From Bolinopsis microptera (Eukaryota; Ctenophora; Tentaculata; Lobata; Bolinopsidae), in assembly GCF_026151205.1 (NCBI RefSeq), contig NW_026971874.1:1-24732 (forward strand): DNA of 24,732 nt. Reading direction: 5' to 3'. Shown piece by piece: positions 2,570 to 23,072 of the stretch. Position 1 is the stretch's first letter, and each line of letters starts with the position of its first letter. Both the position numbers and the translations under genes were made by a program. Below the pieces are notes generated by a model. It did not search any database and was not told the origin of the DNA. It was given only the letters and a program-made list of their open reading frames with translations.

Positions 2570-5500
2570 CTGAAATATTTTCAATGACGAAAGATATTTG
2601 ATTTGATTCGAGCTTCTATGTCAAAACCTACTTCATATTTCTAGCTTGTTAAAATTCTCTGCAAATTTTAAAATTCATATCAATAAAATACATTATGTAC
2701 ATTGTTGTCCATAGATTTGTATGTTAATAAACTGTGTGAGTGTTAACTGACAAAGCTGAAATTGTAAACAGTTTTGAAATAAACAGGGCCTTAACTGTGC
2801 TTTAACCGTGCCTTAACCGTGCGTTAACCGTGCTTTACCACATTACTGAATTGCCATAAACAGTAATTTAACTCACCTCCCAGCATGGTTATCGTTAAGA
2901 ACATCAATCAAGAAGTTTCTAGAGTCAAGTTCTGGACTTGTAGACTGACTAGAGTTTCTAAATCTACTAGACAAACTCCCTGATCGAACAAACTGTTAGA
3001 TCAATATTATCATATTTGTAACTAGAAACTTAGGTAATTAATCAATTTTGTTAACTAGAATCATCTTTCAGTCTTATCTAACCAGTATTAATAGACTGTT
3101 TAAACCTGACAGCTTATCGTCTGCAGCAGCCAGCATCAGAGAATAAACATCAACTGCGTGTAACAGAGCAGGACTTCGCTTTCCTCTTTGTTCATCAGTT
3201 AACCATGGAGTCCAGATAAAAGCAGCACTTTTTATACCTCCCTCGAAATATGAACCTGGGGTGGAAATGTATAAATAATGGCAAAAATGTTCAACATTAG
3301 GCATGAACAAATTCAAAACTTAAGATACATTTGGTGAAAGTTGAATGAATCGTTTAGTTAACCTTTTCCGTCCCTGTAAGGTAGGTTACTCCCACCAATA
3401 GTGTCCCAACAGTTGTTTGGCATAACTGCAGCACCGTGATCACTGGGAGGAATGACTGGTGTTACATATTGATGATAGATGCTATGTAGTATGCACTATG
3501 TATGGCATCTTCAGCTTGGGATCAAGCTTTTGATGGGAGGGCAATAATAAGTGTAATTGGATTCTAATGCAATTGGAGGAATTGAAAAGAAACCAGTTCA
3601 TCGGGTTCAGTGTTATAGATTTGAGCTGATAGATCAGAATTTGGCTGAATGACTGCACCTTTTTTGTATATCCATATTAACACAATTAAGTAAATGGAGA
3701 AGCCAGAGCATGACTGTAACATAATTAGAGCAAACAAGAATTAAAATCTGAATCAACCACACACTCACCTCATGAATAAGAACACAGTGTTATCCCACAT
3801 TTTCTTTCTTGATAAAGCATCAGCAATTTCTCCTACTCCATTATCTATTTGAGTTACCATTGCAGCATACTGCCGTTTTGCTTTGTCAACTATATGTTGA
3901 TTCCTGTTTTGAACTGAAAAAGTGAAAATTCCTTGAAAAGTGAACATTTGAAACGACTGTTATTAACAAAATGAAAGTAAGGTTAATTTAAGAAAATCAC
4001 ACCTTTACTGCTCCTTTGAATGATTTGTTATTAACTTGCCAATTTCATCATCAGGGTCAAGAGGGGAATGAGGGGCAGTATAGGACAAATATAGAAGCAT
4101 AGGTTTCTTATCATCATGACTTTCAATGATCTTCACTGCTTCCTATGATTAACCATTTATCTTTATATTTCATTGCTATGACATGTTAAATAATTTTATA
4201 GGTTCCATCATTGCATTTTCTGTCACATAATTGAATAAAACCTTTGTAAATAGGTTAATTGATATGTAACTGAACAACTTGATAACTTTTCAATACATTT
4301 ATAAAACAAAACCTGTGTAAAGAGTTCAGTTGAGTGTTTGCCTTCAACCTCTGAGGTTATGTCTATGGATGAGTTCGTGAATAGATCATCAGAATGAAAG
4401 TCTTTAACTGTTACCATTCTTTCTCTCTCATCCAATTTCCAACCCCTGTCAATAGTACATAGTAGGAATTTAACAGGACAAGCAGAGACAGGGTTGCAAA
4501 TGTGTTTATTTTAAACTTCCAGGCATTATCTTTAAGACATGCCTGCTTGTTATAATGAAGTATTAAATATGGTTCTGAGTGTGGTTTAGTCCCATAAAAA
4601 TGTACAGACTTATGGGCTTTGGGGCAGTTAGCTATTTAAGATACTGTCCAGAGGATTTTACATCATGGAATGCAAAACCAATATTCACTTGCCCTATCAA
4701 TATCAGTTTTATAAAATGAAAGATTATTTCTGTATGTATGACCGCCCACATGCAATTTGGGTGAAAATCAATTAAACAAATAATCAATTAAACAAATAAT
4801 CAAAGTTTTAGCACATTTTACAGCATAAAATTTAAACAAATGAAAACATATAATGCTCTTAGTGGTAAATGGCCGTTTGTTCTGAGCTGTATGATTTTTT
4901 GACAATCAACTAGCGGGGCAAGGAATGTACTGGCTGGTAGCTTTTGTACACACCAGAACGCTAGTCTGGTTGATTAGTGACCAAATTAGAGGCGTTGATA
5001 GGAAGGCATTATAATTTGTGGGTGTAAGAGGGAATATTTGGCATGCATTATTCTAGCAGCTATTTTGTAACAAATGGTCTTTACGATTATTAAGTATGGT
5101 AAGTATTTTGGGTGTTCAATACTAAATCATAGCTAAATGTCTAAGTGGGGGTTTAAATTTAAGGGAGAAAAAGAAATGAATATTGGGTTATAATATTAAT
5201 CATAGATGTCAACCCTGATATAACTATTGTACTAAAAATTTGATCATAATGCTTAGGGTCTTTATTAGAATTCAAATTGGATATAAAATAGGATCTCTTT
5301 ACACTACACTAACTCACTCACACATCACATTTAACTTGACAGAGGAATACGCTGGCAGAGTAAGTCAATTTGGTCATGAAATTTTGGAGGTCAGGTGGAA
5401 TCCCTGCAGGAGCCTACGAAAATTGAAGGTTACAAATATCAAAGTCTTTATTTGTCCAGTCATACACGGCATGACAATGCTGGTTGGAAAGTAGTGAAGA

Positions 5501-8500
5501 TTTCAGTTTGGATTTCAGGCAAGAAATACTAACAGAACAATCAAAGATTTTAAGGTTAGGGGTTATTATATTCCATATTTTCGTTGACCTCGTGTTATGG
5601 TTGTCTGGGGGATCCGGTTTATTGATAATAAGCATTGGTTTCCTGGAAGAACGAGAATACTCTTCGTACATAGACATAGGAGTAGAAAACTTCATGATCT
5701 CGAATAATTCTATGTAGCTATGGTAAGTATAAAGATTTTGTACAGTGAGTATCTCGTTGTTTTTAAACAGAGGTTTAGTGTGCTCCTTTTTATAAAATTT
5801 ACTATCAAGTTTCTGGTCAGTAAATGGTCTGGTTCGAACACACGTTTTGAATTTATCCAGGTAGGCTGCTCTATCACCAAACAAGACCCTCAGACAGTAC
5901 TTCTGTGCAGTGAATATTGAGCTTACACGATTTTTAGCTGCCCCACCCCATGCTGATATGCAGTACGACAGATGGGATTCAAAAAGAGTGTAGTATAACT
6001 GTCTGTGGAGAAATTCTGGGAGGGAGCAGCGTAGACGACACAGAGTTGAGGTGGCATGGTTAAGCTTTCGTTTTAGGGCTATTATATGTTCTTCCCATGT
6101 TAGATTTTCGTCAATGACGACTCCTAAAAATCTAGCTGACGTTACTCTTTTGATGGGGTAGTTGTCTATATTCATTATGAATTCTTCTTCAACGTTTGCT
6201 TCAGTACGTGACTTAGGTCTAAAGTGAATGTAGCAGCATTTTGACATGTTTATGTGAAGCTTGTTAGCCCGCATGTATGTTTGAAGGTTTGAAAGTAGGG
6301 CGTTGCTGCGTTCATATGCTTCTTGTGCAGTTTTACCAACAACAAATATGTTGGTGTCATCCGCAAAGGTGACAAACGATCCCAAGCTAGAGCTATTAGA
6401 GATATCATTTATGTAAAGTAGGAATAAAAGGGGTCCGACAATTGACCCCTGGGGAACCCCAAATTTTATTGGAAGTAGGTCGGACTTTTCTCCTACAACA
6501 TCAGTGTACTGAAATCGATTAGTTAGGTAGCTCTTGATCAGATCGTTTGCCACGCCACGGATGCCATACCTTTCTAGTTTGGTAAGTAATGTTGAGTGAT
6601 CTATAGTATCGAAAGCTTTGCTGAGGTCGATGAATATGCCTAACACATGGTGCTTCAATTTGATGTGCTTAGATATGAGGTCAACAGAGTAGTTTACTGC
6701 ATGGGAGGTTGAGTGCGATTGCCTGAAACCAAACTGAGTCTTGGATATTATTCCCTGAGAGCTGACAAACGAATAAATCCTAGAATATATGATTTTCTCA
6801 AATATTTTGCCAAATATGGACAAGGTGGATATAGGACGGTAGTTTTCTATTTCTTCTGGATTACCTTTTTTGAAGACGGGTGTGATTCTGCCAGTCTTAA
6901 GTATATCAGGGAATATACCATTTGACATAAGTTTGTTTAAGTATCTGCTGATAATTGGTGCAATAACGTGGGACGAAGTTTTAATAACGGTTATGGGAAT
7001 ATCACTGGCCTTTCCATTCTCGAATTCTTTGATTATTCTTAGAATCTCCTCAGGAGTGCTGTCCTCTAACATAATAGATCGAGAGTTACTAGGGCTAAGG
7101 AAGTCATGGAATGTTTTCATGGGGAGAATTGGAATACCAGAAGACAGGTCAGTTGTGATAGTTTCATTGAGCTTGGGAGCAATTGATACGAACCAGGAAT
7201 TAAAACCATTGGCAATTGCTCTCCGGTTCAAGATTCTTTCATTATTGATGATGAAAGGTGGTTTGGTTGTTTTCTTTCTTTTGCCCCTAAGCTCATTTAT
7301 TATCTGCCAAGTTTTCTTACTGCTTTCAATGTTTTTATAGATTTCGTTACAGTAATAGGAGCGTTTGGCTGCCTTTATGATACCCTTAAGCATCCTACGA
7401 TAGTCACTAAATATCTTATAAAGAAGGACATTGCCAGATGGATCTTTATTTGTTACTGTATCTGACCATTCTTTACAAAGCTCATGTTTTCTGTCGATTG
7501 AGAGGATGATTCCATCTGTAATCCAAGGATTAAGCTTTGGTGTTCTTTTGGTCGTTTTCGGTACTTCTAATTTACAGTGCTTGTCAAGGGTGGATTTGAA
7601 GCAATCGACAAATTCGCAAAAATCTGAAGATTGGGACAGCTGATTCACCTTCACCTCAAGGTCAGAAACAAAATTTTTAAGCTTGGCACTTGAGTAGTCG
7701 TAGTAGCGGACATGTTTTTCATTGTTCTTATTTCTTGGGGCCGGGGTTGAGGTGAAGGAGAATATGAACGTGTGTTCACTTAATCTATCCTGAAGTACAC
7801 CAGAGAGCAAAACATTATCAATATCACTAACTAGGATGTTATCTATACACGAGTTTTTACAATTAGGCCGGAAGTGGGTAGCAATTGAGATGGATGGATA
7901 CAAACCATTACTAATTATAGTGTCTTCAAATAACTGGTTGTGTGACGAAACTTTGAAGAGGTCTGAGTTCAAGTCGCCAAGCAAACGAAAGGGCTTGCCG
8001 GATATCTGCTTAGCAATGGTTTGTAAAGTTTCACAAAAAGCCTCAAGGCAGCCACTAGGGGGACGGTATACAACTCCGTAGACAACCCCAACACCAGTGC
8101 TATCAGTGATTTCGGCGAATAAGCATTCAATGTTTACAGTACAGTAGGATAACTTTTCTAGGACAACAGTGTTAAGGTTGTCTGAGACATAAAGCGCAAC
8201 CCCAGTGCCCTTTTTCTTATCTGGGAGGGTATTTTGATAAAAACTGGTGTAAGATGGGATCTGGTATAATTCTTGTAAGCTACTACCAACGTTGGTTTCA
8301 GCAAGTCCAAGAACATCAAATGGATGAGATAACCGTTTGAGTTCAACTTGGAATGTATCGAAATTACTGGCATTGCCATCAATGTTGAGGAACAGTGCTG
8401 AGAGGAAGGATCCATCACCACTGCTGATTTTTGTAGCTACTTCTGTGAATTCACGTTTGGAATAACGTTTACAGCTCTCGAGGGTATGACAAAATTTTTG

Positions 8501-11500
8501 GATGAGGGTGTCTTCTGCACCCTCATTGTAAGGCCTGTCCGACTTTTCGAGATCGTTTTGATTGTCAAAGGGGCAGTACCTATCCTCTGTGATAAGTGCA
8601 CATTCTGGGCACATCCATAGGCCATTCTTGCACTTAAAACTAGCAGATTTAAAACATCTAGTATGGATAACTTTGGTGCAGTTTTCACATTCAAGCATAG
8701 GTTGCCCAATATTAATCGACTTACTGCACGGATAGCACACCTCCTTATTGATTTTCAAGTTCATTTTGATCAAGTGGGATCATATCCCACTGTCTGACCA
8801 GGTTTCCTCTGTCTAGTTCTCTCAAGTTTCTCACGCACATACACCCAATGTTTAACACATCTCACAAACTTAGATAGACCGCGGTTGCCAAGATGTATCT
8901 CATCCCCATCTCTGGTCAAGTTCATGGCAAGCAGACCTTTGTTATCAACGAAGTGATAGACACCGATCTGCCACACGCTTTGCTCGAAGCTTGACTCAAG
9001 CATATCATAGACAAGTCTGTTGAACATGATGATGTTCATGTTCATGCGGGGAAATCGCGAAGGCAACACAGCGGTAACAAATATCTTAATACGAGGGCAT
9101 ATAGTCTGGATCTGTTGTAGCTTCAAGTGGAGAATATCCACGAGTTGATGAACATCGTTAGGAGATTTCAAGTTCTCAGTCCGGAGATCATTCGTCCCAC
9201 ACACAATAACAGCATTGCTGTATCCTATGCACAGTGACGGGTCAATGTTGCTGATCTTGCTAGCTTTGGCTCGCATACCAGGGAAGGATTGACCCATAGT
9301 ACCTGTTCCAGACCCAAACTTGATGTTCTTTGTGTTTGAGTCTCCAAGTATCACAGTGCTACGTTTGAACTGCTTGCTTATGGTTCTGAGTGTGATGGAA
9401 TACCGGCCTGTTTGCACAGGGAGCTGACTGGATGGTGGAACTGAGTCTCCTGATCCTATACTATGCTGATACCATGCCTGGGAGGACCGTGTCATGATGT
9501 ATACGGAGTTTGAGGCTGGATTAAGACAACTAGGATGGTCGGAAGTGTCTACTACACTATGAATAGGCCTGAAGCTGACTTTTCTCACGTCACCAATACT
9601 GATGGTTGCAATTTCTGAATCCGCTAAGATGTCAGGTTCGTCATCGGAATGAAAGGCTAGGCCATTGCACAAAGTAGCATTGTCTGGTGGAGGATAATAG
9701 TTTATTAGTACTGAATTAGGCCTATGTGTGAGCTCACAGTGGGATGCTACTTTGTCTATGGCTGTTACTAATGGCTGGGGAATTTCAGACGAGCTGGGTG
9801 GACTACTATCACCAGAGTACATGTAACTTTCCCCAAGCTTGAGGACCATCCTGCCGTTTTTCTGAACAAATTTCTGTGAGGTCTTGCAGTCAGACAGAAA
9901 GCTGGTCACAGATTCGAGGGTCTCTTCATCAAGGAAGTCCATTTTATAGTCCTTAATTGGTGGTTCTATGGTTTTAGGGAGGGGAATGGATACAGGCTTG
10001 GGGTCTGGTGTGATGTGGGTCCCAGGCTCTCGTGATCTTTGAAAGTTGGAGATCTCCTCGCTGAGCTTCTTTAGTCTGATCTCAAGGGATGAAATCTCTA
10101 GGGTTGGCATGCTCTGGTTCACAGCACCTGAAATGGCGTCTGAGATGACCTGTATATTCTTACTGTAGTGAACGCTATCTAGGAGAGTCTGGTCCATTTT
10201 GGCTGCTGTGCTTGTACCAGGTTTTGGAAAGTTAGTAGTGAAGCACCAAGGGCAAAGCCAGCTTTGGAGGATAGTATCAAGTGCTGCTTGTTGTGGTGTT
10301 TCCTCTTGGATATCATTAGCTCCCTTGAGGTTGGCACATGAAGCATGCCATTGTTGGTTGCACCTTGTGCATTTGAATTTCCACTCTTTCCCAAGGGAAT
10401 TTCTGAGACATGGGCAATTGGTCTTGTTAGCCCGCAGTTTGTCTGATTCTGTTGCAGGGGGTGTTTCTATATCTACTATATCTATGATGTCTGACACTCA
10501 AAAGGTTGCATTATAGCAACACAACTGGAAACGAGCATGTACACACTGCAGTGGCGTAATGAAGGGCCCCGCTGACCCCGCTGTGCAGGGGGGCGCCGTC
10601 TTAGGGGGGGCGCCAAATCGTTGTTTGAATGTGGGACAATTTCGAAAACTTAACTAAAGTACTAGCAAAACTGCGCGTTTTGCTCTAGATACACACTTTT
10701 TTAGAGATTTTACCAGCGTATCCTCACCTAATTTGTTCAAATTTAGGGAGGGGCACCAAAAGCTAAGGGGAGGGGGCGCCAACAGGGGGGCGCCTTTTCG
10801 GTGGGGGGCGCCAACAGGCAACGTTACGCCACTGACACACTGCACGTGCAATTATTGTTGAAAAGTCATTTTTGTCATATTACGTTAAGGGCTTTCTAGT
10901 ATAATATAAATCGTAAATTACTCATGAGAATGGTGATCAATTCCTCCACTGTAGCATCCATAAAATGATTCGAAGCCTCTGTTTAAGGGAAGATGAGGAG
11001 ATTTAAATCCCAGATGCCATTTTCCAACTCCACGAACACTGTAATCAAACTCTTCTGCTAAAATCTAATAATGAGAATGTTATTATTCGACTAAATTTAA
11101 AGCTCAACAGACAGTTAATACCAATTCAATAAAACAGGATTATAGATATATAATAAAAGATGTAGCAGAAAATTTTTTTTGTCCATGGCCTCATTAAAGC
11201 AAGCATTAAAGTAGGACATTTTGAGGGGACTGTAAACCATGTCGATTGACAATTTACAATTTGCAACAAAAACTGTTGCAGCAATTACTTTGATGAGAAT
11301 AGTCTTCCCTTTAAGAAAACCCAGGTTTTGAGGGGCCCCTATATTCCAGAGGTACTAGGGCTAGTTGCTATAGAGCATACAAAATTCTAGGTAATAACAA
11401 AAGACAAATTGAATTGTTTTACAACCCTAGGTTGAATATAATAATACATCAAAACTACAAACCTCAGTGAAAGTCCTGTGTTCAGGTTTTAAATATTCAT

Positions 11501-11816
11501 TGACACCGATAATAACAGAAGCTGAGAAAAGCCATCCCAGGCTGTGTGGATACCTTCCAGTAAGGAGGGATGATCTCGTTGGGGTGCACAAATTTTGTAC
11601 ATATAAATTTTCAAGAAAAACACTCTTTTCAGCAAGAATGTCTAAATTTGGAGTTTCGGGAGTAGCCAACGTTGTTCCATGCTTTTTGGAAAATCCTATG
11701 TCACCCCATCCCAAGTCATCAGCAATGATCAATACAATGTTTGGCTTAAATCTAGCAGTGGCAAGGATTGTATTTGGGACTAGAAGCAAGTGCAACAGGT
11801 AGAATAAATACGCCAT
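2364..11816 (-). CDS. Arylsulfatase (arylsulfatase B-like), nine exons, 3' end missing
   Basis: A spliced sulfatase gene. Exons in transcription order: 11816-11463, 11064-10922, 4445-4313, 4142-4036, 3903-3769, 3442-3363, 3255-3106, 2979-2877, 2569-2364. Every junction is GT-AG and the phases agree across all eight introns, giving about 470 residues. Family knowledge: sulfatases hydrolyse sulfate esters, here probably on glycosaminoglycans or other sulfated glycans in the secretory or lysosomal route. Seen: an N-terminal hydrophobic signal peptide; ADDLG (metal-binding Asp33/34); CTPTRSSLLTG at 77-87, whose Cys77 is the formylglycine precursor; GKWHLG at 132-137; and SDHG at 291-294. The order and spacing match arylsulfatase B. 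About 60 C-terminal residues expected for the family are absent after 2364, so a last exon probably lies left of the window. If exon 9 read through instead, a TAG would end the protein ten residues later. Intron 2 holds a whole LINE and a MITE. Strong homology call; substrate not determined. Confidence 0.88.
2365..2876. other. Sulfatase intron 8 and the exon 9 surroundings
   Basis: Apart from exon 9 (2364-2569), this stretch is AT-rich. At 2790-2835 there is a short tandem repeat of CTTTAACCGTGC-like 12-mers (TTAACYGTGC three to four times). No other coding signal was seen. Confidence 0.5.
2877..2979 (-). CDS. Sulfatase exon 8
   Basis: Acceptor CAG at 2982-2980, donor GTGAGT at 2876. A Ser-rich loop leads to FLIDVLNDNHAGR, equivalent to the DGxDVW...R segment. 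The split Arg codon links in phase to exon 9. Confidence 0.75.
3106..3255 (-). CDS. Sulfatase exon 7
   Basis: It reads SYFEGGIKSAAFIWTPWL, equivalent to the WEGGVRGVGF segment of arylsulfatases, then HAVDVYSLMLAAAD, the 'H..D..PTL' region in which D and L are retained. Confidence 0.86.
3363..3442 (-). CDS. Sulfatase exon 6: DHG metal site
   Basis: Short 80-base exon reading SDHGAAVMPNN...NLPYRDGK. SDHG is the metal-binding site equivalent to DNG in human arylsulfatase B. Acceptor CCCAG, donor GTTAAC. Confidence 0.85.
3769..3903 (-). CDS. Sulfatase exon 5
   Basis: It encodes NQHIVDKAKRQYAAMV...MWDNTVFLFM, matching the sulfatase helix and strand before the DNG/DHG metal site. The acceptor AACAG at 3905-3904 gives the correct phase; the CAG eleven bases upstream does not. 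Confidence 0.84.
4036..4142 (-). CDS. Sulfatase exon 4
   Basis: It starts in phase 0 with EAVKIIESHD and carries PMLLYLSYTAPHSPLDP, the conserved beta strand and substrate-loop region. The donor GTTAAT at 4035 was preferred over a later GTAAAG at about 4012 because it restores the family spacing of 17 residues between the conserved Pro and the Tyr of YAAMV. Confidence 0.82.
4313..4445 (-). CDS. Sulfatase exon 3
   Basis: Acceptor CAG at 4448-4446, donor GT at 4312-4311. It completes a Glu codon and reads GWKLDERE..., ending KHSTELFTQ, the sulfatase segment equivalent to YSTELFTE. Confidence 0.85.
4446..5239. other. Intron 2 of the sulfatase gene, 3' part
   Basis: AT-rich intronic DNA without a coding signal. 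A 16-base direct duplication (AATCAATTAAACAAAT) lies at about 4767-4798. The 3' boundary of the LINE lies somewhere near 5220-5260, but no clean target duplication was found. Confidence 0.5.
5414..8764 (-). CDS. LINE ORF2: PHD finger, APE endonuclease, reverse transcriptase
   Basis: About 1116 residues from ATG at 8764. The frame also opens at a TTG at 8773 that overlaps the ORF1 stop; residue numbers below count from that TTG. (1) Residues 13-58: PHD-like finger (Cys13, 16, 29, 32, His37, Cys40, 55, 58). (2) About 122-340: apurinic-like endonuclease with Asn130, Glu159 in AETN, Asp267/Asn269 in GDLNSD, Asp311 and His334; the usual SDH reads SEH. (3) About 620-880: reverse transcriptase with ITPVFKKG, NYRPIS, FIDLSKAFD (Asp716), GVPQGSIVGPLLF and FADD (Asp805/806). 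(4) A C-terminal domain with no recognised fold follows; no RNase H is seen. It nicks the genomic target and copies the element RNA at the nick. No internal stop or frameshift. Confidence 0.95.
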   Translation of the reverse strand: MNLKINKEVCYPCSKSINIGQPMLECENCTKVIHTRCFKSASFKCKNGLWMCPECALITEDRYCPFDNQNDLEKSDRPYNEGAEDTLIQKFCHTLESCKRYSKREFTEVATKISSGDGSFLSALFLNIDGNASNFDTFQVELKRLSHPFDVLGLAETNVGSSLQELYQIPSYTSFYQNTLPDKKKGTGVALYVSDNLNTVVLEKLSYCTVNIECLFAEITDSTGVGVVYGVVYRPPSGCLEAFCETLQTIAKQISGKPFRLLGDLNSDLFKVSSHNQLFEDTIISNGLYPSISIATHFRPNCKNSCIDNILVSDIDNVLLSGVLQDRLSEHTFIFSFTSTPAPRNKNNEKHVRYYDYSSAKLKNFVSDLEVKVNQLSQSSDFCEFVDCFKSTLDKHCKLEVPKTTKRTPKLNPWITDGIILSIDRKHELCKEWSDTVTNKDPSGNVLLYKIFSDYRRMLKGIIKAAKRSYYCNEIYKNIESSKKTWQIINELRGKRKKTTKPPFIINNERILNRRAIANGFNSWFVSIAPKLNETITTDLSSGIPILPMKTFHDFLSPSNSRSIMLEDSTPEEILRIIKEFENGKASDIPITVIKTSSHVIAPIISRYLNKLMSNGIFPDILKTGRITPVFKKGNPEEIENYRPISTLSIFGKIFEKIIYSRIYSFVSSQGIISKTQFGFRQSHSTSHAVNYSVDLISKHIKLKHHVLGIFIDLSKAFDTIDHSTLLTKLERYGIRGVANDLIKSYLTNRFQYTDVVGEKSDLLPIKFGVPQGSIVGPLLFLLYINDISNSSSLGSFVTFADDTNIFVVGKTAQEAYERSNALLSNLQTYMRANKLHINMSKCCYIHFRPKSRTEANVEEEFIMNIDNYPIKRVTSARFLGVVIDENLTWEEHIIALKRKLNHATSTLCRLRCSLPEFLHRQLYYTLFESHLSYCISAWGGAAKNRVSSIFTAQKYCLRVLFGDRAAYLDKFKTCVRTRPFTDQKLDSKFYKKEHTKPLFKNNEILTVQNLYTYHSYIELFEIMKFSTPMSMYEEYSRSSRKPMLIINKPDPPDNHNTRSTKIWNIITPNLKIFDCSVSISCLKSKLKSSLLSNQHCHAVYDWTNKDFDICNLQFS
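8762..8773 (-). promoter_or_regulatory. ORF1/ORF2 termination-reinitiation junction
   Basis: On the minus strand the sequence is TTGATCAAAATG: the ORF1 stop TGA (8772-8770) is followed five bases later by the ORF2 ATG (8764-8762), in a different frame. This tight layout is what is expected if ribosomes stop at ORF1 and restart on ORF2. Function is inferred from spacing only. Confidence 0.5.
8770..10497 (-). CDS. LINE ORF1: PHD finger, AlkB-like dioxygenase, SGNH esterase
   Basis: 575 residues. (1) Residues 28-85: a C4HC3 PHD-type zinc finger with Cys28, 30, 43, 46, His51, Cys54, 82 and 85. (2) About 136-155: a short helical, coiled-coil-like stretch, then a Pro-rich linker. (3) About 186-376: an AlkB-family 2-oxoglutarate/Fe(II) dioxygenase: NYYPP (266-270), His283 and Asp285 in FHSDDE, ATISIG (297-302), His345 in WYQHS, and Arg365/Arg371 spaced as RxxxxxR in GRYSITLR. 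All iron and 2-oxoglutarate ligands are present. (4) About 379-555: an SGNH hydrolase: GDSN (385-388), Gly407, GTND (434-437), and Asp532/His535 in DGDEIHLG. Family knowledge: CR1 ORF1 proteins can carry PHD and esterase domains, and ORF1 proteins coat LINE RNA; AlkB enzymes demethylate or oxidise alkylated bases in DNA or RNA. Inference: the dioxygenase may repair or edit methylation on the element's RNA or cDNA. Start chosen at the first in-frame ATG. Confidence 0.9.
   Translation of the reverse strand: MSDIIDIVDIETPPATESDKLRANKTNCPCLRNSLGKEWKFKCTRCNQQWHASCANLKGANDIQEETPQQAALDTILQSWLCPWCFTTNFPKPGTSTAAKMDQTLLDSVHYSKNIQVISDAISGAVNQSMPTLEISSLEIRLKKLSEEISNFQRSREPGTHITPDPKPVSIPLPKTIEPPIKDYKMDFLDEETLESVTSFLSDCKTSQKFVQKNGRMVLKLGESYMYSGDSSPPSSSEIPQPLVTAIDKVASHCELTHRPNSVLINYYPPPDNATLCNGLAFHSDDEPDILADSEIATISIGDVRKVSFRPIHSVVDTSDHPSCLNPASNSVYIMTRSSQAWYQHSIGSGDSVPPSSQLPVQTGRYSITLRTISKQFKRSTVILGDSNTKNIKFGSGTGTMGQSFPGMRAKASKISNIDPSLCIGYSNAVIVCGTNDLRTENLKSPNDVHQLVDILHLKLQQIQTICPRIKIFVTAVLPSRFPRMNMNIIMFNRLVYDMLESSFEQSVWQIGVYHFVDNKGLLAMNLTRDGDEIHLGNRGLSKFVRCVKHWVYVREKLERTRQRKPGQTVGYDPT
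10549..10834. mobile_element. hAT-type MITE, copy 1
   Basis: A 286-bp element with inverted ends CAGTGGCGTAA...TTACGCCACTG. It is flanked by a perfect 8-bp duplication ACACACTG (10541-10548 and 10835-10842), the hallmark of hAT transposition. GC-rich subterminal motifs (GGGGGCGCC, several copies) surround an AT-richer centre. No coding capacity, so it moved with a transposase supplied in trans. It lies between the LINE 5' end and the sulfatase exon 2 donor. Confidence 0.93.
10922..11064 (-). CDS. Sulfatase exon 2: GKWHLG motif
   Basis: Between acceptor AG at 11066-11065 and donor GT at 10921-10920. It starts in phase 0 with ILAEEFDYS, carries VGKWHLGF and ends in GGIDHHSHE, matching the arylsulfatase segment that ends YYSHE. 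Confidence 0.88.
11065..11462. other. Sulfatase intron 1
   Basis: 398 bases of AT-rich intron between donor GTTTGT (11462) and acceptor AG (11066-11065). No other feature seen. Confidence 0.7.
11463..11816 (-). CDS. Sulfatase exon 1: signal peptide and formylglycine site
   Basis: ATG at 11816 in a good context (A at -3, G at +4). It encodes 118 residues: a signal peptide of about 20, then PNIVLIIADDLGWGD and the CTPTRSSLLTGRYP signature. The donor is GAG/GTTTGT, phase 0. Confidence 0.9.
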
Positions 11817-19471: not shown

Positions 19472-21059
19472 ACCTGGATAAGTGTATCCCGGTCACCTGG
19501 TTACCTGGAGAGGTGTCTCCAGGTAACCAGGTTACATGGTTACCTGGTTACCTGGTTACCTGGTTACCTGGTTACCTGGTTACCTGGTTACCTGGTTACC
19601 TGGTTACCTGGTTACCTGGTTACCTGGTTACCTGGTTACCTGGTTACCTGGTTACCTGGTTACCTGGTTACCTGGTTACCTGGTTACCTGGTTACCTGGT
19701 TACCTGGTTACCTGGTTACCTGGTTACCTGGTTACCTGGTTACCTGGTTACCTGGTTACCTGGTTACCTGGTTACCTGGTTACCTGGTTACCTGGTTACC
19801 TGGTTACCTGGTTACCTGGTTACCTGGTTACCTGGTTACCTGGTTACCTGGTTACCTGGTTACCTGGTTACCTGGTTACCTGGTTACCTGGTTACCTGGT
19901 TACCTGGTTACCTGGTTACCTGGTTACCTGGTTACCTGGTTACCTGGTTACCTGGTTACCTGGTTACCTGGTTACCTGGTTACCTGGTTACCTGGTTACC
20001 TGGTTACCTGGTTACCTGGTTACCTGGTTACCTGGTTACCTGGTTACCTGGTTACCTGGTTACCTGGTTACCTGGTTACCTGGTTACCTGGTTACCTGGT
20101 TACCTGGTTACCTGGTTACCTGGTTACCTGGTTACCTGGTTACCTGGTTACCTGGTTACCTGGTTACCTGGTTACCTGGTTACCTGGTTACCTGGTTACC
20201 TGGTTACCTGGTTACCTGGTTACCTGGTTACCTGGTTACCTGGTTACCTGGTTACCTGGTTACCTGGTTACCTGGTTACCTGGTTACCTGGTTACCTGGT
20301 TACCTGGTTACCTGGTTACCTGGTTACCTGTTTACCTGGTTACCTGGTTACCTGGTTACCTGGTTACCTGGTTACCTGGATAAGTGTATCCCGGTCACCT
20401 GGTTACCTGGAGAGGTGTCTCCAGGTAACCAGGTAACCAGGTTACATGGTTACCTGGTTACCTGGTTACCTGGTTACCTGGTTACCTGGTTACCTGGTTA
20501 CCTGGTTACCTGGTTACCTGGTTACCTGGTTACCTGGTTACCTGGTTACCTGGTTACCTGGTTACCTGGTTACCTGGTTACCTGGTTACCTGGTTACCTG
20601 GTTACCTGGTTACCTGGTTACCTGGTTACCTGGTTACCTGGTTACCTGGTTACCTGGTTACCTGGTTACCTGGTTACCTGGTTACCTGGTTACCTGGTTA
20701 CCTGGTTACCTGGTTACCTGGTTACCTGGTTACCTGGTTACCTGGTTGCCTGGTTACCTGTTTACCTGGTTACCTGGTTACCTGTTTACCTGGTTACCTG
20801 GTTACCTGTTTACCTGGTTACCTGGTTACCTGTTTACCTGGTTACCTGGTTACCTGTTTACCTGGCTACCTGTTTATCTGTTTACCTGGTTACCTGGTTA
20901 TCTGGAGAGGTGTCCCCAGGTTACATGGTTACCTGGTTACCTGGTTACCTGGTTACCTGGTTACCTGGTTACCTGGTTACCTCGTCACCTGGTTACCTGG
21001 TTACCCGGATAAGTGTATCCAGGTTACCTGGTTACCTGGTTATCGGGTTACCTGGATAA
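19472..21059. repeat. GGTTACCT octamer array with header modules
   Basis: Almost pure tandem GGTTACCT: about 104 units in block 1 (about 19532-20373), about 38 in block 2 (about 20446-20750), then a variant block to 21059. Blocks are introduced by a shared header, GGATAAGTGTATCCCGGTCA followed by a hairpin-forming segment (19476-19540 and 20377-20450, with degraded versions near 20890 and 21006). Because 8 and 3 share no factor, all three plus frames give the same octapeptide cycle WLPGYLVT without stops, so the long frames here are not genes. Each unit contains GGTTACC, a near-palindrome. Confidence 0.97.
19495..19532. repeat. 17-bp hairpin in the array header
   Basis: ACCTGGTTACCTGGAGA and TCTCCAGGTAACCAGGT are perfect inverted copies separated by GGTG. 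The same structure recurs near 20397-20434. A strong cruciform or hairpin candidate at the start of each block. Confidence 0.8.
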
Positions 21060-21788: not shown

Positions 21789-23072
21789 ATGCTTCAATCC
21801 CTCTCTCTTCTCGCTCTGCTCTCCGCTTCGTGCGCTATCTGGCTGGACCTCTACGAGCACGACAATACCAATGGAAACAAGGTACGACTGACTGAACCTG
21901 TAGATTGGCTTGGAAATGTCCACTTTAATGATGCAGCATCCAGTGCACGAGCTGACGGGAACTGGGAACTGTACTCTAACTGGAACTTTGAAGGGCTGAG
22001 GATGGTAGTGGAAGGTGGTCGTCACTACAACAACTTGGGGGGAACCTTCAACGACGCAGTCTCCTCAGCTCGACCTACCTGTATTTACACAGGGGATGCT
22101 AATGATGCCCTGCTAGAAGTTTGGGAGCATGGTGACCACCGTGGCAACAAGAAGTCCTACACGAAGGATGAATCGTACTTGAACGACTGGAACGACAAGA
22201 TTAGCTCGGCGTGCGCTGTTAAGGGGGACTGGGAGTTATACGAACACTACCTCTTTACAGGAGTTAGATGGGTGATAAAAGAGAACGAATGTCATAACAT
22301 AGTGGCACACAATGATTACTACACCTCCCTGCGACCTCTCTGTGCCAGCTACCACCCAAAGTGTACTGTACAGAAAGTCAGGGTGGGGTCCCAGGGTTTG
22401 TTGACGCCCAGATACGAATCAACAGAGGTTATCGGCGCTAACGATGGTGGCACGTGCACTGGCCCGTCCACCTATACCCTGAGCATGCAACACTCGAGGA
22501 CAGTCACGGAATCGACCACGCTTGAGTTCGGGGAGAGTAACGAGGATAACTGGGGCGTGTCGGTGACAGTGGAAGTGGAGGCAGCTGCCAAGGTGTTTGG
22601 AGCAGGAAGTTCGGTGACCATGGGTGTTTCTGTTGGGTTCGGAGGATCCCGAACCGTCTCCAAATCAGAATCTACGACAAAAGAAGTGGCTCACCAGTCT
22701 TTGGTAGGGATGAGTGTAGCTTTTCCAGTGCCCGGAGCAGCTTTAGTGTTTGGACTGGTAGACAAGTACAAGATGGATGGAGCTGACGTACCAGCCACAA
22801 TGGAGCTGCTGTGTCCTGATGGCAGCACCAAAGAGAAGAAGACCCACATAAAAGTAAAGTCTACTACCTTCTCTTCTGCCACCTTCTGGTCAATGCAAGG
22901 AAAATTTAACACTGGGCCGTGTAATAGAGATTGGACATTGCCATTTTGTGTTAAACACGTTCGGCAACGGTACTCAAACTTCATCGGGAACAGGCAAGAA
23001 ATTGTAGACGGTTTCCGTGCTTGTTTTGCACATGGTAAAGGGTCCATTAATGGTTTTAAAGAGAAGAAATAA
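21789..23072 (+). CDS. Secreted beta/gamma-crystallin + aerolysin-like pore-forming protein
   Basis: 427 residues in one exon. Residues 1-16 are a signal peptide ending near SASCA. Residues 17-96 and about 108-186 are two beta/gamma-crystallin domains, each with two Greek-key motifs. All four calcium motifs of the form (N/D)(N/D)xx(S/T)S are present: NDAASS (47-52), NDAVSS (88-93), NDKISS (135-140) and NDYYTS (175-180). Residues about 190-380 form an aerolysin/ETX-MTX2-type region: long Ser/Thr-rich alternating strands, with an amphipathic stretch rich in Ala, Gly and Val (about 262-286) that could be the insertion hairpin. A Cys-containing tail follows. Family knowledge: this fusion occurs in animals, for example the frog beta-gamma-CAT alpha subunit, where the protein oligomerises on membranes in defence or vesicle roles. 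Inference: a secreted, calcium-tuned membrane-active defence or venom-like protein. Whether it is toxic cannot be told. Kozak context has A at -3. Confidence 0.9.
   Translation: MLQSLSLLALLSASCAIWLDLYEHDNTNGNKVRLTEPVDWLGNVHFNDAASSARADGNWELYSNWNFEGLRMVVEGGRHYNNLGGTFNDAVSSARPTCIYTGDANDALLEVWEHGDHRGNKKSYTKDESYLNDWNDKISSACAVKGDWELYEHYLFTGVRWVIKENECHNIVAHNDYYTSLRPLCASYHPKCTVQKVRVGSQGLLTPRYESTEVIGANDGGTCTGPSTYTLSMQHSRTVTESTTLEFGESNEDNWGVSVTVEVEAAAKVFGAGSSVTMGVSVGFGGSRTVSKSESTTKEVAHQSLVGMSVAFPVPGAALVFGLVDKYKMDGADVPATMELLCPDGSTKEKKTHIKVKSTTFSSATFWSMQGKFNTGPCNRDWTLPFCVKHVRQRYSNFIGNRQEIVDGFRACFAHGKGSINGFKEKK

Follow-up and report, generated by a model that had tools for sequence, protein, structure and literature searches.

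In the literature consulted, the closest case of a retrotransposon-encoded AlkB dioxygenase comes from orchid (Phalaenopsis), in which a Ty3/Gypsy element of the long terminal repeat (LTR) type carries, as an additional open reading frame (ORF), an ALKBH5-like protein that belongs to the ALKBH5 clade, was called recent and demethylates N6-methyladenosine (m6A) in vitro (PMC9289625). AlkB domains were also mapped in 2005 in plant positive-strand RNA viruses, where they form part of a protein acting on the viral genome RNA, conserve HxD, H and RxxxxxR, and were proposed to protect viral RNA (PMC544882). Here we describe an AlkB-type domain in the first ORF (ORF1) of a long interspersed nuclear element (LINE) from the ctenophore Bolinopsis microptera, found in a stretch of 24,732 nucleotides (NCBI RefSeq assembly GCF_026151205.1, contig NW_026971874.1, positions 1 to 24,732), the whole of which is referred to as the window.

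The other domains of this ORF1 have precedents among CR1 and L2 LINEs, whose Type IV ORF1 proteins likewise contain an SGNH esterase (PMC4120745, PMC3905857). Many CR1/L2 ORF1s have PHD fingers, and one subgroup is reported to have a PHD that probably opens ORF2, as in the window's ORF2 (PMC4120745). In the survey of 448 Jockey-superfamily elements by Metcalfe and Casane, table rows give RRM, CCHC, PHD, esterase, Tnp22, CC and zf/lz; the esterase type turned up there in vertebrate groups alone, though occurrence in diverse phyla is cited (PMC4120745). Unlike the orchid enzyme, the window's AlkB lies within a LINE ORF1 as one of its domains, is ALKBH2/3-like, adjoins an esterase and is common to divergent ORF1 proteins; the viral AlkBs differ in lying within replicase polyproteins and were judged recent integrations (PMC544882). 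An earlier note, made from the letters of this DNA, knew of no LINE with such a domain, and literature searches aimed at one turned up no earlier description in the titles or abstract starts of the matches listed (subscription journals, Repbase reports and bioRxiv being outside their scope), nor in the excerpts of a krill paper and a Mnemiopsis transfer paper.

Results

An intact AlkB domain in ORF1

The element lies on the minus strand, with ORF1 at 8770-10497 (575 codons and a stop) and ORF2 at 5414-8773. ORF1 encodes a PHD-like finger, a probable coiled coil, the AlkB domain and an SGNH esterase; no internal stop interrupts its 575 codons, as the earlier note had claimed, and the frame of ORF2 is likewise open. 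The one strong Pfam match of ORF1 was PF13532 (2OG-FeII_Oxy_2), covering residues 220-371 at E 9.8e-16 and 59 bits, above the curated cut-off of 31.2, which excludes a chance origin of the AlkB signature. All of the motifs previously listed were recovered at their residues, namely N266-Y-Y, H283-S-D285-D-E, ATISIG, H345, R365 and R371, so that the iron ligands HxD...H (H283, D285, H345) and the RxxxxxR arginines (R365, R371) are complete. A double-stranded beta-helix, the fold by which the earlier note had proposed to check its reading, was predicted for the domain. Structure matches span residues ~174-377, corresponding to ~9367-9978 on the minus strand, and the limits first drawn for the domain (9370..9942) were therefore slightly too narrow. 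Sequence and predicted fold together thus place a 2-oxoglutarate/Fe(II) dioxygenase domain with an intact, conserved active site in ORF1 of an endonuclease–reverse transcriptase (RT) element, and from that active site we infer that it may act as a nucleic-acid demethylase.

For analysis of conservation, a search with ORF1 found 81 proteins, which were aligned with the window as 82 rows (the first family). A second set comprised 131 matches, 120 of them listed; its alignment used 110 of these 120, leaving out the 343-amino acid P0166 and nine of eleven 552-amino acid matches of near-equal score. The earlier note had raised the prospect of relatives lacking the ligand residues; instead, the catalytic set H283, D285, H345, R365 and R371 is complete in 80 of the 82 first-family rows, the exceptions being P0029 (R371C) and P0081, and in 104 of the 105 second-set rows that cover it, P0108 having lost the last Arg. 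Within the domain, the catalytic columns rank among the best conserved (median identity of the AlkB core to the window, 43% over 79 rows). Conservation of these residues argues for purifying selection on the AlkB-bearing ORF1.

Named hosts are few among the 81 relatives: three proteins (P0035, P0058 and P0079) come from the ctenophore Mnemiopsis leidyi, and one, P0062, is labelled Moritella, presumably through contamination or mislabelling. The Mnemiopsis models P0058 and P0079 give the impression of ORF1 pieces joined to unrelated sequence, as in chimeric gene models or exonised fragments. Relatives of ORF1 also include four JGI proteins (P0052, P0064, P0067 and P0070) whose given name, 'alkylated DNA repair dioxygenase AlkB', may mislead. 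In the second set, the eleven 552-amino acid proteins (P0162-P0165, P0167-P0170, P0172, P0173 and P0175), whose longest contigs are ~150 kb to 2.4 Mb, possibly stem from the recent expansion of an element within a single eukaryote genome. No relatives of the locus were confirmed in the viral contig or genome contig collections searched, and tblastn of the AlkB part against a phage collection gave no match.

The flanking domains

The PHD finger reported upstream of AlkB was only partly borne out by Pfam, since the match in this copy is weak (E 0.14-0.23) and below cut-off; its eight C4HC3 ligands (residues 28-85; 10243..10416, minus strand) are nevertheless present, and are complete in 52 of the 54 rows, among 82 aligned, that cover all eight columns (median identity 55%, 57 rows). 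AlphaFold2 secondary structure gave two long helices at residues 97-156 (10030..10209, minus strand), which probably form a coiled coil; this region is less conserved, at a median of 24% over 72 rows. Downstream of AlkB, the SGNH esterase of the earlier note, a domain of the SGNH/GDSL type (residues 381-560; 8818..9357, minus strand), was recovered both as a fold and as the catalytic residues S387, D532 and H535, which are kept in 77 of the 78 rows covering all three (median identity 50%, 78 rows).

Relation to ALKBH2 and ALKBH3

When a profile of 28 first-family rows was compared with solved proteins, the leading matches were ALKBH2 (1.4e-12), ALKBH3 (7.7e-11) and ALKBH8 (7.7e-9); a profile of 22 second-set proteins matched ALKBH3 (1.1e-24), ALKBH2 (2.7e-21) and E. 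coli AlkB (1.8e-7). ALKBH2 and ALKBH3 were thus the closest solved AlkB proteins by sequence in both searches. ALKBH5 and FTO were absent from the 23 first-family and 36 second-set sequence matches at E <=0.1, but nevertheless share the AlkB fold by structure comparison. Both probably carry different residues at the HxDDE motif. In simulations of ALKBH2, residues Y122, F124, D173 and E175 touch the flipped N1-methyladenine (m1A) or N3-methylcytosine (m3C) base (PMC12795828), and in the profile alignment these correspond to Y225, Y227, D285 and E287 of the window, which are kept in 79/80, 79/80, 81/82 and 80/82 rows, respectively, counting rows with a letter at that position. By sequence and active site, the ALKBH2/ALKBH3 class, acting on m1A/m3C, is thus a better fit than the m6A-directed ALKBH5/FTO class; of the targets first suggested for the domain, m6A/m1A-type marks or alkylation, the m1A part is favoured and the m6A part less so.

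Structure comparison placed DNA-bound structures at the top of the VIA list, in whose rows the human ALKBH2 and ALKBH3, cellular repair enzymes, are 20-24% identical to the domain. Models of AlkB from RNA viruses and giant viruses also matched it structurally, the predicted viral structures showing 10-22% identity (50 listed of 200 at E <=0.001, all virus types). An unrooted tree was computed from 52 rows. The first family (82 rows) contributed 28 of these and the second set (131 matches) 22, and the two human enzymes were its only cellular sequences. On this unrooted tree, with its two cellular sequences, ALKBH2 and ALKBH3 pair at 100/98 on a long branch of their own, which joins beside the second-set protein P0193 at 91/84. 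The second set does not form one group.

ORF2 and the element

The element is a non-LTR (LINE) retrotransposon and, judging from its domains, probably one of the CR1/L2 kind. ORF2 contains both a LINE-type endonuclease (Exo_endo_phos, 1e-5) and an RT (RVT_1, 6.1e-36), preceded by an N-terminal PHD/C1-like finger (C1_1, 2.4e-5, just under its cut-off); the Pfam listing, which ran to E 10, contained no integrase, and the gag-pol/integrase organization of the orchid-type LTR element was thus not found. The closest database proteins are P0002 for ORF1 (95% identical) and P0202 for ORF2 (96% identical). As homology to P0002, the nearest longer relative, starts at its residue 129 (one copy only), this ORF1 copy is probably 5'-truncated, as LINE copies normally are. 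A short tandem repeat (16 bp x 2.4; 4766..4803, minus strand) is, from its position, a possible 3' end of the element; neither inspection by eye nor the repeat list of the window revealed target-site duplications.

At the junction of the two frames (8762..8790, minus strand), a perfect 7-bp inverted repeat, GTGGGAT-ATG-ATCCCAC, stops one base short of the ORF1 TGA, and an ATG follows 5 nt past the TGA, at 8764, where P0202 begins. The predicted hairpin is not significant against shuffled sequences (fold z -1.24). Of the relatives that reach the C terminus, 28/76 end in PT, several of them as VGSxEPT or VGSxDPT, the codons of which could preserve a similar hairpin and possibly a stop-restart signal.

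Linkage of ORF1 to ORF2 in other elements was assessed by looking for ORF1 and ORF2 matches on contigs of identical size, using for ORF2 the 120 matches listed of 467. Four of 80 distinct first-family contig sizes recurred among them, where 0.69 were expected (at least four in 0.4% of 2000 trials). This is suggestive of first-family ORF1s being linked to an RT-bearing ORF2 elsewhere, the best case being a contig of 64,129 bases (P0036, P0237). For the second set, contig-size coincidences with the 120 listed ORF2 matches gave no evidence of linkage (2 of 118 sizes against 0.80 expected), and one of the two sizes (6223) was also among the four of the first family.

Other features of the window

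The start of a sulfatase gene (PF00884, 2.8e-12) is located at 11520-11816 on the minus strand; the LINE lies ~1 kb downstream on the same strand, and perhaps sits in an intron of that gene. A beta/gamma-crystallin protein of 427 amino acids is encoded at 21789-23072 on the plus strand (Pfam 3e-17), and its C-terminal half, without a Pfam match, may resemble an aerolysin-type region. Repeats comprise a long GA-rich array with many overlapping periods at 331-1877 and, at 19522-21055, 192 copies (93% match) of the 8-bp tandem repeat GGTTACCT, the frames of which yield long VTWLPGYL ORFs.

Discussion

The AlkB-bearing LINE ORF1 architecture, with its conserved catalytic residues, appears to be new and is broader than the window alone shows; AlkB in an orchid LTR retrotransposon and in plant RNA viruses, and the esterase and PHD of CR1/L2 ORF1s, were already known. 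As to its role, we propose a template-repair module fused to an RNA-packaging protein, a reading to which we give an even chance. The ORF1 protein would coat the element's own RNA, like ORF1 proteins in general, and its AlkB domain would oxidatively strip Watson-Crick-face methyls (m1A, m3C) that otherwise halt the element's RT during target-primed reverse transcription. Such methyls occupy the face used for pairing and hamper reverse transcriptases; m6A leaves base pairing unblocked. We infer element RNA as the substrate and unblocking of the RT as the benefit. In OTTR work, which uses an R2 RT and hence an enzyme derived from a non-LTR element, m1A hampered the copying of tRNA fragments into cDNA, an impediment that AlkB treatment eased (PMC12140624), so a demethylase tethered to an RNA-coating ORF1 protein could aid self-copying. 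More tentatively, and with somewhat less confidence than in the role itself, an ALKBH2/3-type enzyme, captured long ago and fused to an esterase ORF1 before the divergent ORF1 families split, may have given these ribonucleoproteins a means of erasing RT-blocking methyl lesions before copying, and hence a LINE template-repair system.

Several observations weigh against template repair, or against the class assignment and conservation on which it draws. Nothing indicates that LINE RNA in these hosts bears much m1A or m3C, and the OTTR effect of AlkB, clear for 3' tRNA fragments, was modest on intact tRNAs (PMC12140624). The window's AlkB domain alone reached ALKBH2 only at E 0.023, so that the class relation rests on the profiles, and likeness of the pocket cannot pick RNA over DNA because ALKBH2 acts on DNA. 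The second Asp of HxDDE varies, being D in 67 and N in 14 of 82 first-family rows, and D in 35 and N in 65 of 105 second-set rows. P0081, which keeps S387 (esterase Pfam only 0.069) and has no AlkB domain, is probably an esterase-type ORF1 without it. Finally, AlkB is not among the LINE ORF1 domains given above from the table rows of Metcalfe and Casane, and the term 'alkb' was counted zero times in that paper (PMC4120745).

Of the alternatives, the one that survives best is repair on the DNA side, in which the domain would act like ALKBH2 and remove N1-methyladenine and N3-methylcytosine either from single-stranded DNA at the target site or from cDNA newly made by target-primed reverse transcription. 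That a DNA enzyme, ALKBH2, is the best solved-sequence match of the first family and that DNA-bound structures lead the VIA list both favour it, but we consider this unlikely to be the role of the domain.

It is somewhat more doubtful that the domain strips m6A from element RNA to evade host recognition or decay, as proposed for the orchid element. This role is made less attractive by the fact that m6A spares pairing, and also by findings on human L1. In human cells m6A favours L1, and ALKBH5 suppresses its mobility (PMC7873242). The in vitro activity of the orchid enzyme does offer a precedent, and its authors cite a lowering of endogenous retrovirus mRNA by m6A in mouse stem cells; the orchid enzyme, however, is nested among ALKBH5 homologues (PMC9289625), whereas the best sequence match of the ORF1 domain is ALKBH2/3.

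We hold it very unlikely that the enzyme is directed at the host, altering host RNA (e.g. m1A/m3C in tRNA) or a host protein and thereby tilting translation or silencing toward the element. AlkB-like folds do include enzymes acting on proteins. ALKBH3 also demethylates tRNA (PMC5304225), but no pointer to a host target was noticed in the sequence, and the protein carrying the domain is expected to reside on the RNA of the element itself. A structural relic, in which the fold would do no more than bind RNA or serve in packing and could do without catalysis, is scarcely credible, for although one row in each set has lost the last Arg (P0029 and P0108), conservation in the catalytic columns is among the highest of the domain, and these columns are complete in nearly all covering rows.

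With this finding, the domains known from LINE ORF1 proteins, whose functions are poorly understood, come to include a predicted nucleic-acid demethylase. It also means that metagenome proteins annotated 'alkylated DNA repair dioxygenase AlkB' can be kin of retrotransposon ORF1. If template repair is true, RNA base methylation limits retrotransposition, and natural ORF1-tethered demethylases might improve cDNA synthesis from modified RNA. On that view, mobile elements would face an epitranscriptomic restriction, in which m1A/m3C made by the host, or damage by alkylation, truly obstructs them, and LINEs would have evolved a countermeasure to it.
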